A DNA stretch of 64,000 nucleotides, taken from assembly GCF_000812465.1 (NCBI RefSeq), contig NZ_JWMA01000160.1:1-64000 (forward strand). The letters are read 5' to 3'. The notes beneath the pieces were generated by a model, which worked only from the letters and a program-made list of their open reading frames with translations, was not told where the DNA came from and did no database searches. Shown here one piece after another: positions 1 through 6,506 of the stretch. Numbering within the stretch: position 1 is the stretch's first letter; each line of letters starts with the position of its first letter. The position numbers were made by a program, and so were the translations under genes. Origin of the DNA: Cupriavidus sp. IDO. GTDB lineage: Bacteria > Pseudomonadota > Gammaproteobacteria > Burkholderiales > Burkholderiaceae.

Positions 1-96
1 GCACAAGCGATCGACTTCGATCTGCGTCGTGCCGATCTTGCCCAAGACCTCTACTTCGCCCGGGCCTATCGCATAGGCAACCGTGATTGAGTCCTT
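1..96 (-). CDS. IS110-family transposase, second exon (partial, runs off left edge)
   Basis: Read on the minus strand, the 32 codons from 96 down to 1 begin KDSITVAYAIGPGEVEV and continue open to the window edge. They join in frame to the 14 codons at 5814-5773 to give YVGLDVH-KDSITVA, the typical N-terminus of IS110-family (DEDD, RuvC-like) transposases. The first catalytic aspartate is D12, three codons before the junction. The gene is interrupted exactly between His14 and Lys15 by the group II intron. Transposition activity would need correct splicing of the intron. The rest of the gene lies outside the window, so its integrity cannot be judged. The plus-strand frame over the same bases is a shadow. 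Confidence 0.85.
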
Positions 97-133
97 GTCG
101 GGTAGCAGCGACGCATTACTGCGTCGCCGCCCC

Positions 134-171
134 CTAAGAACCGGACGTGCGAGTCGCCCCGCATCCGGCTC
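134..171 (-). ncRNA. Group II intron domain V
   Basis: On the minus strand this 38-nt segment folds as the conserved catalytic domain V hairpin: GAGCCGGATG pairs with the segment ending CGTCCGGTTC, followed by TTAG. Domain VI follows directly at 133-97. Together they fix the 3' side of the intron. Confidence 0.85.
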
Positions 172-190
172 AAGCCATCCTTCAGCACCA

Positions 191-1618
191 CTAGGTGGCA
201 CCGGGCAGCCCAGCGGAACGTTTCGCGGATCGACGGCGGGCAAGGTAGGTGTCCCATGCCGGATCAAACGGATTGGCCAGTCCCCGGATTTTGATGTGGC
301 GCTGGATGGCGACCGTCGTTGCTCGGAAGAGTTGCAGGCCGCAGGTGTCACCCTCGGTTGAACCCTTCATTGCAAAATCCCAGGACCGGTGTCCGTCGCG
401 CCGGTAGTACCGTTGCCTGACCCACCGGGCTCCTTTCGTGGGGTGCCTACGTCTTGCCCACTTCCAGAGCAGGTGCCAGAGGTGCGAGTCTATCGTCGAG
501 AAGGTCGCTTTTGCCACGACGTGGCGATGATACATAGCCCATCCCCGAATGATCGGGTTCAGCCTACGGATCAACACCTCTTGGGTGACACTCGCGTTGT
601 CTTTTATGATTCCCCTGACCTTGTCGAGCAGCGATTTGATACCTTTCGTCGCTGGCTTGATCAGCAGTTTGCCGCCGTACTTGCGCACGTTCTGGCCAAG
701 GAAATCGAAACCCTCCGCTATGTTGGTGATTCTGGTTTTCTCTTCCGAGAGTTCCAGGCCTCGGGCGGCCATAAATTGCTTGACCGCGGGAAGCACCCGG
801 GATTCCAGCACATCTTTCGATACGCCAGTCACCACAAAGTCATCGGCATAACGGACGACGTTGAGCTGAGCCTGTCTGCGAGCAACTGTTGATGTTCCCA
901 CACTTGCACAAACTGCTGCTTCAAGCCCATCCAGCGCCATATTCGCGATCACAGGCGAGATGACACCCCCTTGGGGTGTACCCGCCCGCGACTCGAACAG
1001 GGTTCCCTCATCGATATATCCGGCCTGAAGCCACTTTCGCAGAACCTCCTTATCCATCGGTATGTTCTCCAGGAACCAGGAATGACTGAAGTTGTCGAAA
1101 CATCCTCGAATGTCACCCTCCAGAACCCATTCTGGCGAGGCACGCTTGGCCAGAACGTTGAAGCACTGTTCGATGGCGTCGGCGGTCGAGCGTCCGGGCC
1201 GAAAGCCGTAGGAATTGGCGTCTGCCAGGGTCTCTGCGATGGGTTCCAGAGCGAGCTTCCATAAAGCCTGCATCGCCCGGCACCGCATACATGGAATTCC
1301 CAGCGGGCGCTTCTTGCCGTTACTCTTGGGAATGTAAATCCGCCGCAGCGGCATCGCACGATAGCCGCGATGACGTAGCGACACCATTCCGTTCCATCTG
1401 GCCGCCGGGGACGGCCATATTCTGCCATCCACCCCCGGCGTCCTCTTACCGCGATTTTCCGTCACACGCTTCACGGCGAGCATCTTGCCGCTATGCGAGC
1501 GGGTCAGCAGACGTTGCAAGGCTTTCACCTTGCCCCATCGGCCTTCCCGAGTTGCCTTGGCTAATGTGGAGCTAACCGACATGTGGAGTTCGAGTAGAGT
1601 GCTGGCCTCGAGAGCCAC
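191..1618 (-). pseudogene. ltrA: Group II intron reverse transcriptase/maturase, C-terminal fragment
   Basis: The open frame is 475 codons, but only the part from base 1561 downward is maturase sequence; the first 18 or so codons are RIT end sequence. It contains the reverse transcriptase domain with the YADD active site at about residue 257, and a maturase/thumb (X) domain ending HIKIRGLANPFDPAW. It stops soon after, with no HNH endonuclease cysteines or histidines. The missing N-terminus is found 3.5 kb away at 5036-5161: ...VRIAK there joins ATREGRW here through the shared codons GCC AAG. The intact protein would be about 496 aa. A truncated protein could start at the ATG at 1582, but it would lack the N-terminal RT-0-like segment. 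Activity is doubtful. Confidence 0.85.
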
Positions 1619-1642
1619 TGGCTCAGTTCGAACTCCACATAA
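1562..1642. repeat. RIT left terminal repeat array
   Basis: Boxes TAATGTGGAG (1562-1571), ACATGTGGAG (1579-1588) and the inverted CTCCACATAA (1633-1642). The second and third sit inside a 13-bp perfect inverted repeat, ATGTGGAGTTCGA at 1581-1593 and its complement at 1628-1640. These are likely binding sites of the three recombinases (inference from symmetry with the right end). Confidence 0.8.
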
Positions 1643-1651
1643 TTTTCCAGC

Positions 1652-2683
1652 CTACAGCCGACGCAGCCAATCGATGATATCGGGTTGTTTGGGAGTGTTC
1701 TGACTGGTTGGCGCCTGTCCGCCCAGGATATCAGGAAAGACCTGCGCAAGCGCCTGCCGCTTGATATCCATGTCGGCTCTCGCGTAGATCATGGTCGTAT
1801 TCAGCGTGCTATGCCCAAGCCATTGACTGATTGTTGCAAAGTCGAAACCGGCTTTGAGTAACGCAACGGCGGTTCCGTGACGCAGTGAATGAGGATGGAT
1901 TCGCTTGGCACGAAGGGTGTCGACGTCTTCGGCGGCAGCCGTAACATACTTGCTAAGCAGATATCGCACACCGAAGCGGGTAAGTTGACCGCCATGATTG
2001 TTGCGAAACAAGAAGTCCTCGCGGTCCTCAAGAACATCAGGCCGCGCTCGTGGCAAATCTCGCAGCAACCTGGCAGTACGAGCCCAGATTGGGCAGAAGC
2101 GTATCTTGCCACCCTTACCCTTCAGTCTAACCTGGCATGGCGATTGGAAGCGTACATCGCAACGGCGCAGATCGAGGATCTCTTGCACTCGGGCGCCCGT
2201 GTTGAACAGCACGGCAAAGAGCGCGTAATCGCGTTGGCCAGCTTCGGTGGAGCGGTCAATTTTATCGAGAACCGCCTTGACTTCAGAAGCCTCCAGATAT
2301 TCGACTGGTGCCTGCCTTGCTCCTCGCTTGAACGGTAGTGCCAATATCCGCTGCCATTCGAGCATGTGTTCTGGATAGTGGTTCGACAGGAACCGCGAGA
2401 ATGTATGGAGCGCAGCCAATCGAGCGTTACGGGTGCTAATGCCGTTGCTGCGCTTCTCCTGGATGAACGTCAGGAACCGACTGACGGCTTCCGAATTGAT
2501 ATCGCAAAGGTCGAGCCTGTCCACGGGCCGTGAAGAATCCTCGGATAGGTAACGTAGGAACAGCACGATGGCATCTCGGTAGCCACGAATCGTGTGTTCG
2601 CTCATACCGCGCAAGGTCGGAAGATATTCGTGGAAGAAGCGTACCAGTGAGCGTCCAAGTTCGTTTGGATGACTGGGATTCAT
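1652..2683 (-). CDS. RIT tyrosine recombinase, third gene
   Basis: This 343-aa site-specific recombinase has an N-terminal SAM-like core-binding domain (about 15-105) and a C-terminal catalytic domain. Visible catalytic residues are R165 (NTGARVQEIL), H265 and R268 (HSLRH), H291 (WLGHS) and the nucleophile Y300 (MIYARAD). It is the last gene of the trio; its ATG overlaps the stop of the middle gene by 4 bp, implying translational coupling. All five active-site positions match the family, so this protein looks catalytically competent. In RIT elements the three recombinases are presumed to act together on the element ends. The gene stops 10 bp from the inner end box at 1642. Confidence 0.9.
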   Translation of the reverse strand: MNPSHPNELGRSLVRFFHEYLPTLRGMSEHTIRGYRDAIVLFLRYLSEDSSRPVDRLDLCDINSEAVSRFLTFIQEKRSNGISTRNARLAALHTFSRFLSNHYPEHMLEWQRILALPFKRGARQAPVEYLEASEVKAVLDKIDRSTEAGQRDYALFAVLFNTGARVQEILDLRRCDVRFQSPCQVRLKGKGGKIRFCPIWARTARLLRDLPRARPDVLEDREDFLFRNNHGGQLTRFGVRYLLSKYVTAAAEDVDTLRAKRIHPHSLRHGTAVALLKAGFDFATISQWLGHSTLNTTMIYARADMDIKRQALAQVFPDILGGQAPTSQNTPKQPDIIDWLRRL

Positions 2684-3651
2684 GATGCACCTCCATCAAT
2701 CACATGGCCAAAGTGTGCTTCGAAGCGTTGGCTGGCCACTGCCACAAGTGACGGAATCCACTTCAGATAGTACGCAGTCGAGACGATGGACACGTGGCCC
2801 ATATACAGTGCGAGCTTGGGAAGCTGTGATTGCACGTCGAGTCCCTCTCGGTACCATCGCAGGAGGGCCTGAAGAGCAAAGACATGTCTCATATCATGAA
2901 CGCGTGGGCAATGCCCATCGCTGCCGAGCACATTGGCGGCATGGAACACGTTCTGGATAGCTTCTCGAAGACCGCCAACGGAATAACCGCGAAATCCGTT
3001 CGCGAAACTGCAAAGCAAGGGGGACGTCGATTCGTTGCGTGAAGGTAATGTCAACCGCAGCTTAAGATACGACTGCAGTTCCTGGCGCGCGTCGGTCGAG
3101 AGCGGAACAAATCTGGATTTGTGAAATTTGGACTCGCGAATATGTAATACCCCTTGTTCAATGTCGGCGTCGCCGATCGTCAGTCGTGCCACTTCTCCTA
3201 TGCGCAGGCCTGTCGTATAAAGCAGGACCACTGCCAGCCGGACGACGGCCGGCCGTAGTGGCCCTCGATGAGTCGCAGGCAATCGGTCCGCCGCAGCAAG
3301 CATCCGTGCCACTTCCTGTTCGCCGAAGATGGACGGCGGACGACAAGCGACCAGGCGAGGAAAGCAATTGATGTCCGGGATGAAACATGCTGGTTCTGTA
3401 CGTTGCCGGTAGAGACAGAACTTACGAACGATCAACTGCCGTTTCCGACGATGATTGATACAAACTCCAGATAGCGAGTTACACCAGGCCTCAAACTGGG
3501 CCGAGTCAAGGTCTGTTGCGCACCGGTCCAACAGGAAGCGCCCCAGCGAAACCAGGGTCATCTGCTCATAACGGTAATCACGGCCGAGGGCGCGTCTTGT
3601 GGCAACATACCGCTCGACGAGCGGACCAAGGGGGAAATCATACGGTTTCAT
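2680..3651 (-). CDS. RIT tyrosine recombinase, middle gene
   Basis: 323 aa when started at the ATG at 3651, which is preceded by a GGGAGGG ribosome site; a start 51 nt upstream is possible but has no such site. Catalytic residues of the tyrosine recombinase family are present: R150 (TTGLRIGEV), H252 and R255 (HDMRH), H286 (YMGH) and Y294 or Y295 (STAYYLK). The N-terminal core-binding domain spans about residues 8-95. It overlaps the upstream recombinase by 14 bp and the downstream one by 4 bp, so the three are one transcription and translation unit. Its role is strand exchange at the element ends together with its partners (family knowledge). Confidence 0.9.
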   Translation of the reverse strand: MKPYDFPLGPLVERYVATRRALGRDYRYEQMTLVSLGRFLLDRCATDLDSAQFEAWCNSLSGVCINHRRKRQLIVRKFCLYRQRTEPACFIPDINCFPRLVACRPPSIFGEQEVARMLAAADRLPATHRGPLRPAVVRLAVVLLYTTGLRIGEVARLTIGDADIEQGVLHIRESKFHKSRFVPLSTDARQELQSYLKLRLTLPSRNESTSPLLCSFANGFRGYSVGGLREAIQNVFHAANVLGSDGHCPRVHDMRHVFALQALLRWYREGLDVQSQLPKLALYMGHVSIVSTAYYLKWIPSLVAVASQRFEAHFGHVIDGGAS

Positions 3652-4873
3652 GTTGCCCTCCCTCTGCCTCGGCAAGCCGTGGCAACGACAATCCGACTTC
3701 ACGCAGGCTCTCGATCTGCAGACGTAGATAGACGTGGGTGCTTTCTACAGTTCGATGGCCTAGCAGGTCTCCAATGGCCTTGATGCCGACTCCGCGCTCC
3801 AGCAAATGCATTGCGAACCCATGGCGCAAGCTGTACGACGAAGTCCCTTCAAGAGGTAGTCCGCTTTGGCGCGCCCGTCTTCGGTAGATGGATCGTATTG
3901 AAGTGCTCGTCAGTGCCTGAGCAGGTGCGCGGAGGCGCAGAAATAGCGAAGGAAGGGCGCTCGGCGGGCGGACGTCGTAAACGTAGCGGCGAAGTAGCGC
4001 AAGTGCGGCGGATGGCAGAGGCAGGACCAACCTCGAGCGCGTCTTGCGTTGCTCCACCTGAAGTGTTCCGGAAGACCAGTTGATCGAGTCCAGATTCAGC
4101 AATGCGACCTCAGACGGGCGCAAACCGAAATAGGCCATCAGGTAGAGAATGGCATGATCCCGATATCCCGCGGCTTCAGTCTGGTCGATTGTGTCCAGAA
4201 ACGCGAGGGTGAGCTTCCACGGGAGAGCCTTGGGTGGCAACTCGCCTTGATACACCCTGGGTGTATCGATGCCATCAAGCCGCGCGAGAACTTCGCCCCG
4301 GTCATAGCAAAATCGCAGAAAAGAACGCAACTGACCCACCGGCTGTTGCAGCGTGGTGCGCTTCAAGCGTTGTCCGGCAGCAGTAACAAAGGATTCGACT
4401 GCGCACGCGGAGATCGTACTGACCGGAGAATCAGGCTTAACGGCATGACTGAGGAAGGCATATGCCGTATCCAGATGATGTTTGGTAGTCTCGACGGCGT
4501 AGCCGCGCGCTTCAAGCAAATACTCCCGATATGCAACCAGGACGCGCGTAAAGCGGCCGAACTCAGGTTCGGACATCAGGCACCCTTGGCCAGTCGAGAT
4601 CAGGAACCGTTGAAAATTGTGTCCGGTAGCCCGGTATTGCTCCGGGCGCGTCGAAAATAAGAATAGCTCGGCAAGTTGGCCACGAGTCAATCCCCGTTGA
4701 GGTGGAAACGCTCCAGCGCGTTCGAGCGCCTGACGGAGCCTCAGAACATGACCCCTGGTCGCCTTGCGCGAATATCCGCGATTCGTCAGCCATTCGGCGA
4801 ATCTGTGTAGCCAGGGCGCCACCGGTGATTCGGCGTAGCGTCCATGTGCCTTGGGAAATGGTTCCGTGAGCAT
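3638..4873 (-). CDS. RIT tyrosine recombinase, first gene
   Basis: This 411-aa protein is the largest of the trio. It has an extra N-terminal segment (about 1-100), a core-binding domain (about 105-200) and a catalytic domain. R252 (FGLRPSEV), R350-H351 (YSLRHGFA), H373 (LLGHRTVES) and Y382 (VYLRL) are visible. The usual HxLR histidine is a tyrosine here (YSLR), a change from the consensus that may alter its part in catalysis. It is the first gene from the right end; the 55 bp between its ATG and the inner end box at 4929-4938 must hold the promoter, so transcription may depend on sequences in the element end and be sensitive to recombinase binding there (inference). Confidence 0.9.
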   Translation of the reverse strand: MLTEPFPKAHGRYAESPVAPWLHRFAEWLTNRGYSRKATRGHVLRLRQALERAGAFPPQRGLTRGQLAELFLFSTRPEQYRATGHNFQRFLISTGQGCLMSEPEFGRFTRVLVAYREYLLEARGYAVETTKHHLDTAYAFLSHAVKPDSPVSTISACAVESFVTAAGQRLKRTTLQQPVGQLRSFLRFCYDRGEVLARLDGIDTPRVYQGELPPKALPWKLTLAFLDTIDQTEAAGYRDHAILYLMAYFGLRPSEVALLNLDSINWSSGTLQVEQRKTRSRLVLPLPSAALALLRRYVYDVRPPSALPSLFLRLRAPAQALTSTSIRSIYRRRARQSGLPLEGTSSYSLRHGFAMHLLERGVGIKAIGDLLGHRTVESTHVYLRLQIESLREVGLSLPRLAEAEGGQHETV

Positions 4874-4928
4874 GGTGCCTCCGTAAAGTTGCTCAGAGGG
4901 AATATCACCCTACGCCAAACGTTCAAGG

Positions 4929-5009
4929 TTATGTGGAGGGAAGATGCTGAGGGTATGGACCAGCGCGACTGAAGCCGCGGAGCTTCACATAACGAAGTGC
5001 TACACATTA
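4929..5009. repeat. RIT right terminal repeat array
   Basis: Boxes TTATGTGGAG (4929-4938), inverted CTTCACATAA (4983-4992) and inverted CTACACATTA (5000-5009). Order and spacing (44 bp and 7 bp) mirror the left end exactly. It also lies just upstream of the first recombinase gene, so it may double as its promoter/operator region. Confidence 0.8.
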
Positions 5010-5010
5010 G

Positions 5011-5040
5011 CCAAGTAACGTTATGTGCAACGTTACTTGG
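5011..5040. promoter_or_regulatory. RIT core recombination site (12-bp arms, 6-bp spacer)
   Basis: CCAAGTAACGTT (5011-5022), spacer ATGTGC (5023-5028), then the exact inverted complement AACGTTACTTGG (5029-5040). Two short inverted arms around a 6-bp spacer is the standard form of a tyrosine recombinase core site. It is complete only at the right end; the left end retains only CTTGGC of it. Confidence 0.6.
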
Positions 5041-5161
5041 CGATACGCACCTGAAGTCGTTTCACTTCTGCGTCGATCTGCGACCAGTCCGCCTGATCCC
5101 ACATCTGCGCAGCGCGCGAGGGCGCACCAGCCCCGAGCGCTTTCGCGTCGGTTGCCGTCAT
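5036..5161 (-). pseudogene. Group II intron maturase, N-terminal fragment
   Basis: From the ATG at 5161 the minus strand encodes 42 residues, beginning MTATDAKALGAG and ending with WSQIDAEVKRLQVRIAK, followed at once by a TAA that belongs to the RIT core site. This is the conserved N-terminal segment of bacterial group II intron proteins (W..id......V.rLQ.RI.kA). It continues in frame in the fragment ending at 191. The frame is open further upstream to 5356, but the ATG at 5161 gives the usual start position relative to the conserved segment. Confidence 0.8.
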
Positions 5162-5772
5162 CTGCTTTCCCTCGTATAACGATTGGTCAAAGTTATCCCG
5201 CCATGAATGACCGCGCGGAAGTCTGCCCGCTTTCGCGTCGGGCAATGTCTCAGCCCGTATCCCGTCCATTACAGCCGGGCATTCGCTTTCTCCGCATTCC
5301 TTTACCCACCGCGCCAACAGCGTTCCTTGCGGTTCGCCTGCCGTTGCCGGCAGCACGATGGGCTTACCCTGTTCCGCTTGAGTCTCTGAGCGGGGCGGAC
5401 CCTTCCTATTCGCCGGCGGCTAGGCGTCCATGGTGGCCCAGTCCACGAGGGCCACTCCACACCGCGTACCGTTTTGGTTCAAGCCTGTCAGCACGTTTGG
5501 CTTGTTTCTTGGTGACGACGTTTATCGGAAGTTCACATGTGTTGGTCGTACCCGCCCGTCCCTTGCTCCTCTCCGCCTCTGTGCTGGCAGATTCCACCTC
5601 ACCTCGCGGTTCGGCGTACCGGTTATCCGGCGGCTACGTTGTCCCCGGAGCTTCACACCAAGCTGTTGCCGGCTCGGCATGTCCGGGTAGGGAACGGTTG
5701 ATGGAACAACCGGTTTCATCAGGTCATACCTTCTCCAGTGAAACAGAAACTTAAGCGACTTTCAGGTCGCAC
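5162..5772 (-). ncRNA. Group II intron ribozyme domains I-III
   Basis: About 610 nt between the intron 5' end (GTGCGACC at 5772-5765) and the maturase start. This is the expected size and place for domains I-III. Candidate EBS1 (GTGAAC, 5536-5531) is complementary to the last six bases of the 5' exon. I did not fold the whole region. Small frames on either strand here are not genes. Confidence 0.7.
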
Positions 5773-5814
5773 GTGAACGTCCAGACCGACGTACAGAGTG
5801 CTATCGTCTTTCAT
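5773..5814 (-). CDS. IS110-family transposase, first exon
   Basis: Fourteen codons, MKDDSTLYVGLDVH, from the ATG at 5814 to the group II intron boundary. YVGLDVHK is the signature N-terminus of IS110/IS1111 transposases, with D12 the first DEDD catalytic aspartate. The gene continues at base 96. The intron therefore sits inside the most conserved start of the transposase gene, a site that gives a homing-type intron a conserved target in many IS copies (inference). Confidence 0.85.
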
Positions 5815-6506
5815 GCTGGCCTCCGCGTGGGAAATAAGCCGTTGAGTGGCGGATTCGCCTCCCCCTCAATGCGGCTCTGGCAGCAATGCTAATCCGCGTC
5901 TGGTTCCCCACGGCGGCCAGCCTCGCTGCCACGGGAGTCATACTGACTTACTGTCCTCGGCGGACGGCCAGTCTTATCGTAGCGTGCGCGTGTTTTTGTA
6001 CGGGTATGGGCTTCAGGGCATAGCTACGATGCCTGCCGCGTGGTAACGAGAGGGCGCGAGGCATTGATAGGCCGTCCTCCCGACCTCGTGAGAGGGGAGT
6101 GGTACGCGGCTTGAGGTCCGTCCGTCTGCGCAGCGACATCGCGCACCACGGTTGTGGTCCGGCACCTCTTGCCGCAGGCACGCCGTTCGATCACTGAGCC
6201 ACTCCGCTCTCACGAGGTCGGGAGGACAGCGCTGTTCCCGGCGTTGCCCTTGGCGATCTGCGCGGCAGGCAGTCCAGCTATGCGCTGAAGCAAATACCCG
6301 TACAAAAACCGTAGCTCACTACGATAAGACTCCCGCCCGGCGGGCAAGAAAGCGCTTTTTGCTTCCTTTTTGGCGCAGTCAAAAAGGGAGTCGCCGGCTA
6401 CGCCGGCGAAACAGCAGAGCATCCAAGAACCCAAACGCCGCAATCCAGCGAAGAACAGGTTGGGCGACGACGGCACCGATGGTCCACTGGTGCCGGCATC
6501 CCGTGT
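5815..6506. other. Non-coding IS110 upstream end and adjacent repeats
   Basis: No credible gene in 692 bp. The first 100-150 bp directly upstream of the transposase ATG would be the IS110 non-coding end. In IS110-group elements this end encodes the bridge RNA that guides target choice (established for the family; not demonstrated here). The outer IS boundary is not visible to me, as this family often lacks terminal inverted repeats. The rest is dominated by the inverted repeat pair at 5968-6098 and 6200-6333. A GC-rich tract with a hairpin follows at 6330-6410. Confidence 0.55.
5968..6333. repeat. Long imperfect inverted repeat, about 130-bp arms
   Basis: The arm at about 5970-6098 (begins AGTCTTATCGTAG, includes TTTTTGTACGGGTAT) matches the reverse complement of about 6200-6331 over its length without large gaps, at roughly three-quarters identity by eye. 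The best-kept segment is TCCTCCCGACCTCGTGAGAG. A central spacer of about 100 bp separates the arms. The two arms look like two diverged copies of one dispersed intergenic repeat in opposite orientation, next to the IS110 end. Confidence 0.7.

Follow-up and report, generated by a model that had tools for sequence, protein, structure and literature searches.

Layout of the nested array and its empty sites

The stretch analysed here (the window, 64,000 nt) is positions 1 to 64,000 of contig NZ_JWMA01000160.1 from Cupriavidus sp. IDO, and its first 5814 bases carry, on the minus strand, an IS110-family transposase gene, a group II intron and an element of the recombinase in trio (RIT) type. The transposase start (5814-5773) is followed by the intron (5772-97) and then by the continuing transposase frame (96-1); 46 IS110 codons are visible, 32 of them after the intron, and the remainder lies beyond the assembled sequence, window base 1 being the contig edge. 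The RIT lies in the maturase gene of the intron and is bounded by CTTGGC on the plus strand at 1556-1561 and 5036-5041 (Table 1). Judged from the sequence, it is highly probable that these are three mobile elements nested in one another, the RIT in the maturase gene and the intron in the transposase gene, with retargeting of the intron and integration of a RIT circle as parts of the same joint explanation. The array brings known kinds of element together in a new way.

Table 1. Features of the nested array and its surroundings (window coordinates; EBS and IBS, exon- and intron-binding site; RT, reverse transcriptase; P, palindrome)
Feature	Position	Strand	Remarks
IS110-family transposase codons 1-14, 5' exon (MKDDSTLYVGLDVH)	5773..5814	-	ATG at 5814; 96% match to L014; intact homologue with DEDD_Tnp_IS110 and Transposase_20
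IS110-family transposase codons 15-46, 3' exon, leaving the contig	1..96	-	88% to L014
IS110 upstream region, to about the start of the interspersed repeat; IS end approximate	5815..5947	-	similar stretch adjoins the IS110 copy of G010 (L304)
Group II intron with RIT, 5676 nt	97..5772	-	insert-free relatives about 2.2 kb
5' part of group II ribozyme (Rfam group-II-D1D4-7, RF02012)	5565..5713	-	127 bits, cut-off 34
EBS1 GUGGAC	5441..5446	-	pairs with IBS1 GUUCAC (plus-strand 5773-5778)
EBS3-like U	5408	-	complements +1 A of 3' exon (position 96); column fits +1 in 22 of 25 other introns
Maturase N-terminal 42 codons, severed by RIT	5036..5161	-	ATG 5161; TAA immediately at RIT start
Maturase remainder, RT and maturase domains, 456 open codons	191..1561	-	RVT_1, GIIM, RVT_N 20-81 of 83, TIGR04416 361.6 bits (cut-off 300)
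Group II domains V and VI (RF00029)	97..173	-	58 bits, cut-off 40
RIT element	1562..5035	-	empty sites in 18 intron relatives; end rule
ritA, tyrosine recombinase, 411 aa	3638..4873	-	protein profile matches
ritB, tyrosine recombinase of uncertain start (324 aa from ATG 3654)	2680..3702	-	protein profile matches
ritC, tyrosine recombinase, 343 aa	1652..2683	-	protein profile matches
20-nt palindrome P, ritA end	5016..5035		end comparison among RIT loci
Target hexamer, outer copy (minus strand GCCAAG)	5036..5041		end rule
Inverted hexamer, inner side of P	5010..5015		end rule
Target hexamer, ritC end	1556..1561		end rule
Interspersed, internally inverted repeat (part), apparent IS110 host	5948..6456		copies elsewhere in genome

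Apart from a short intron fragment of 81% identity on contig C113, which also crosses the region of the RIT join, the DNA search of the same genome (40 of 222 first-look candidates scored) gave no copies of the intron, the RIT or the IS110, and congeners were therefore used for the empty sites. When the intron was joined without the RIT, it aligned at 74-93% identity with 18 distinct copies from nine congeneric genomes (25 alignment rows less seven repeats), with no gap at the join as viewed over 25 bases on each side. An earlier note on this DNA had predicted that removal of 1562-5041 restores VRIAK-ATREGRW, and this join is free of gaps in 18 of 18 spanning copies without a RIT, two of which (L015 and L016) are incomplete farther along the intron. 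As all 18 relatives cross the join, each maturase half aligning to the same intron, both halves come from one intron, in agreement with that note. Its second join, YVGLDVH-KDSITVA upon removal of 97-5772, corresponds to the product encoded at L014 in the congener G010, where matches to window 1-98 (88%) and 5773-5820 (96%) abut at the predicted point in an open transposase frame. The intact L014 homologue carries the Pfam domains DEDD_Tnp_IS110 and Transposase_20, and it is through this homologue that IS110 family membership is assigned. The identities given earlier for the three nested elements are correct and their coordinates exact to the base, and support for the observation is unusually strong; the retargeting of the intron, the end rule of the RIT and the repeat around the IS110 described below go beyond them.

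The IS110 itself probably sits inside an interspersed repeat as a fourth layer, the other half of which would lie beyond the contig end, because two other copies of the repeat extend 118-167 bases farther on the IS110 side than the window copy and because, in G010, the IS110 directly borders a stretch of this kind. Matches to the repeat (5948-6456) were found on 28 other contigs of the same genome, again with 40 of 222 candidates scored, and weaker ones in 15 of 59 other genomes searched. Members of the IS110 family are known for a bridge RNA in the non-coding end.

An IS110-dwelling intron with altered guides

The intron begins with GTGCGAC and ends with CCCGAC, exactly as its relatives do, and shows domains V and VI, a reverse transcriptase/maturase (TIGR04416, RVT_1, GIIM) with severed N-terminus, and EBS-IBS pairing. 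In a sample of 44 introns differing in 5' flank and first 430 bases, a motif test or visual inspection assigned IS110-family exons to 16, among them the window copy, with L108 as a doubtful seventeenth. A tree of 37 maturases places the window copy in a clade of 11, all within IS110-family genes (support 99/96). Ten of the 11 members are inserted after 'DxAKxxF' and before Q; the window copy lies four codons upstream, at 'DVH|K'.

Pairing of EBS1 with IBS1, with columns aligned to the window EBS1 (5446-5441), gave standard pairs at 173 of 204 positions over 34 unique pairs; 10,000 shuffles, which ignore kinship, reached a mean of 88.8 and a maximum of 118, none attaining 173. For the window, EBS1 GUGGAC pairs with IBS1 GUUCAC at 6/6 positions including one G.U, and the 'F|Q' copies have GAAGAC or GAAUAC paired with GUCUUC, GUGUUC and similar. 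A scan of all columns against the first 3' exon base led to one EBS3-like column that fits 22 of 25 introns (runner-up 17), with a T opposite A in the window. As each complements exon bases there, EBS1 and the EBS3-like U both suit the window site. Guide pairing as the basis of site choice is weakened by the poor fits at fixed columns of L313 and L088 (2/6) and of L049 and L317 (3/6), next to 4/6 for L050, L061, L108 and L316; L049 and L050 reach 6/6 when shifted by one base, indicating that the poor fits are partly due to alignment shift. From a lineage at 'DxAKxxF|Q' of other IS110-family genes, an ancestor with both guides changed would have moved to a site four codons upstream, and retrohoming guided by EBS1 GUGGAC and the EBS3-like U would have brought the intron to the window IS110.

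Group II introns are known to be housed in insertion sequences, for example RmInt1 in ISRm2011-2. The window lineage shares with introns of that type the use of transposase genes as homes for a retroelement, but it is of the group-II-D1D4-7 kind and resides in IS110-family genes at a conserved N-terminal motif, with the window copy four codons off and its guides changed accordingly. In titles and abstract openings of the literature, no description of group II introns in IS110 was found. Traffic in both directions is seen, introns entering IS110 genes and IS110 elements entering introns: L053 and L093 (C. necator UYPR2.512 pSym) and L016 are introns of the same family invaded just past domain V by IS110-family elements, DEDD_Tnp_IS110 being detected in the invaders of L053 and L016, and L053 has a second inserted element inside its maturase gene. 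RIT-like recombinase genes occur near, and outside, introns of this family at L040 and L043. A tandem pair of group II reverse-transcriptase genes is present on the 4188-bp contig L308 (G000:C40).

Since the first 42 maturase codons are severed, the RIT insertion placing a TAA directly after codon 42, the loaded intron can probably no longer achieve retromobility by itself. RVT_1 and GIIM are retained, and the match to RVT_N starts only at position 20 of 83; the 456-codon frame extends into the RIT end (ATG 1582, GTG 1618), where the two starts were considered for a role independent of the insertion and no Shine-Dalgarno sequence was seen by eye. Speaking against a loss are these 456 codons, which are still open, and a ratio of nonsynonymous to synonymous substitutions (dN/dS) of 0.24-0.37 towards near relatives, only slightly raised (L012 against others, 0.17-0.19; noisy values of 0.3-1.3 for pairs with few changes). 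This pattern fits recent or mild relaxation and does not prove loss of function. The claim in the earlier note that the ribozyme was left in place holds for the parts matched by Rfam models (RF02012 and RF00029, both above cut-off), between which the RIT lies, and as the insert interrupts maturase codons, with the 5' ribozyme region on one side and domain V on the other, the intron may still splice.

The ends of the RIT and its proposed integration

The innermost element, of 3.5 kb, carries three adjacent tyrosine-recombinase genes in the same orientation, with relatives of RitB and RitC in the same order in other RITs, and its termini consist of a 17-base imperfect inverted repeat and a palindrome. 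Read inwards, one end shows a hexamer, a 20-nt palindrome P, the inverted hexamer and TAATGTG, and the opposite end has CACATTA followed by the hexamer; the window RIT reads GCCAAG, P = TAACGTTGCACATAACGTTA and CTTGGC, with GCCAAG at the far end. Ricker et al. (2013) reportedly treat RITs and may describe part of this end structure. The same end rule was present at 15 of 23 RIT loci examined, five of the 15 being copies in one genome, and the three hexamers are identical at 10 of them, including the window; L291, for which no far end was found, has two matching hexamers. P measures 20 nt at all 15 loci, with 7-10 of 10 arm positions complementary, and its sequence varies from lineage to lineage (TAACGTT..., TCACGTTGAGCTCAACGTGA, TTATGTGGAGCTCCACATAA, TAATGTG...CATTA). 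P was chosen by eye for L319-L326; the far hexamer is the best match among one to four candidates. Four loci of the 15 (L134, L319, L320 and L321), whose hexamers differ by one or two bases, and the eight of 23 without the rule tell against its generality; ends are visible without a one-sided palindrome at L126, L127, L128, L129, L322 and L324, and the script gave no end repeat for L131 and L133. The set of 23 does not include L323, five of the ten G038 pattern matches, the second RIT of L135 or L132, which lacks ritC.

A RitA search of 299 genomes led to 15 matches and missed the RitA copies of G038, which were found later, so that absence from this search is weak evidence. The pattern TAACGTT-N6-AACGTTA was tried as a RIT probe and rejected as unspecific by itself, since it matched 33 of 398 genomes and its reversed control about 22; matches lay at RITs in six of the 33. 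At least 120 matching stretches came from viral contigs, and the 40 checked (L246-L285) had no RIT protein. In many species of genus g20 (e.g. G170:C3:1071018 and 1073365), two 20-nt palindromes, TAACGTTAAGGCTAACGTTA and TAACGTTAAGGGTAACGTTA, recur as a pair with a spacing of about 2.3 kb.

RITs have been described as adjacent, partly overlapping ritA-ritB-ritC genes of about 3.5 kb with inverted repeats, and in the parts of those papers considered here their insertion inside genes of other mobile elements is already reported (PMC3414803, PMC2864759). The window RIT resembles them, as far as those parts describe them, in gene trio, order and partial overlap, size, inverted repeats and a host that is another mobile element's gene; it differs in a RitA whose identity to those found does not exceed 51%, in ends, hexamer and palindrome that can be set against an empty site, and in having a group II intron as host. 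The part of PMC3414803 considered names no convincing sites beyond the inverted repeat and an overlapping palindrome and calls mobility undemonstrated. A 6-bp sequence travelling with the element and tyrosine recombinases are also common to the SEs, in the portion of PMC10214605 that describes them; there the two end motifs are separated in the circle by a 6-bp spacer, a place that in the proposed circle of the window RIT would be taken by a 20-nt palindrome between two inverted hexamers, a likeness by description only.

From the end rule it would follow that the circle junction is palindromic and that crossover takes place there, within an overlap of 6 bp. The circle would join the ends of the RIT as one palindrome, CACATTA-GCCAAG-P-CTTGGC-TAATGTG, and crossover within the GCCAAG common to circle and maturase gene would leave one end with hexamer, P and inverted hexamer and the opposite end with the hexamer; as the palindrome holds two hexamers, recombination at either would yield the observed product. 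At L320 and L134 the outer and far hexamers are not the same, as would be expected of an element that carries its own overlap to a target differing slightly from it. Because the inverted hexamer of the window RIT equals the target exactly, GCCAAG may have been its previous site as well; a close relative of this RIT, with which targets could be compared, was not found. In C. necator UYPR2.512, five fetched copies, 99.6-99.9% alike where compared, occupy one target in both orientations, ATTGAC|GAAGCC, codons of a Walker B motif 'VLLIDEAQEM'. P is at the ritC end in three and at the ritA end in two, always on the GAAGCC side, as is predicted by two equivalent arms and a directional hexamer; the same picture would arise if the element had inverted between its end repeats.

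Annotated IS21 genes adjoin the RITs of L128, L320, L321, L324 and L326, and flank translations at these loci and at L126, L127, L134 and L319 resemble the IstB Walker B motif, by eye only. The RITs of L130 and L291 are in other genes, and that of the window, in maturase codons for A-K, is the sole one among these with a group II intron as target. We tentatively propose, at rather less than even chance, that RITs build their own attachment site, a palindrome with two hexamers equally usable for crossover, the inner copy recording the last host hexamer, and that RIT lineages are specialists for short, conserved motifs in the coding sequence of other mobile elements, the window RIT for group II reverse-transcriptase genes and many others for Walker B codons of transposition ATPases. 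On a Mycetohabitans endofungorum plasmid (L128), a RIT has an inverted IS21 piece on either side, both interrupted at one and the same motif, which would fit recombination of its two ends with separate IS21 targets. No description of a RIT with IS21 was found in the titles and abstract openings of the literature matches listed.

Order of arrival and other explanations

The nesting shows that a RIT entered an intron and an intron an IS110, and the sequence IS110, intron, RIT is the most parsimonious; the earlier note had called it certain, which goes too far: it is preferred and not proved, a point against it being that a RIT-loaded intron may have moved as a unit, or the loaded IS110 at a later time. 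If the RIT-loaded intron moved into the window IS110 as a unit, with maturase supplied in trans, the RIT would predate the intron at this site. The guides fit the site in this case as well, and five other group II reverse-transcriptase loci above the family cut-off in the genome might help in trans; these, however, lie outside the window intron lineage as far as the DNA search shows. No second RIT-loaded intron was among the matches listed for 60 congeneric genomes (five candidates scored per genome), none of 30 matching plasmids covers 80% of the query, and a RIT inside an intron was seen at none of 80 maturase loci (of 148 found), with RIT-like matches only in the flanks of L040 and L043. 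As no other loaded copy appeared among the listed congener and plasmid matches, the simple order is preferred and transfer as a unit appears improbable.

About equally improbable is a 6-bp target-site duplication by transposase-like staggered cutting, with P as an unrelated terminal feature. The hexamer is indeed directly repeated at both ends at all 10 loci with three identical copies, but duplication does not account for an inverted hexamer inside P that tracks the target, for L320, where the outer hexamer deviates from the other two, which are the same, as expected of an element that brings its own overlap, or for RIT proteins that are tyrosine recombinases. An assembly chimera, for which repeats and palindromes would be typical breakpoints and which the contig end at the start of the window might suggest, is hardly credible: the junctions show the order of hexamer, P and inverted hexamer seen in independent RITs, the intron ends exactly as its relatives do, and an artificial join would not yield guides that fit the IS110 site.

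Nested insertions are common among mobile elements, and the value of this case lies in the exact RIT ends and the retargeted intron; the layers calibrate one another because empty sites fix each join. The RIT-empty site gives exact ends for elements whose ends and mobility are unclear in the consulted part of PMC3414803, and the end rule predicts one specific circle junction. The intron would represent a natural retargeting experiment, in which two guide contacts change together and the home site moves by 12 bases within one transposase motif.
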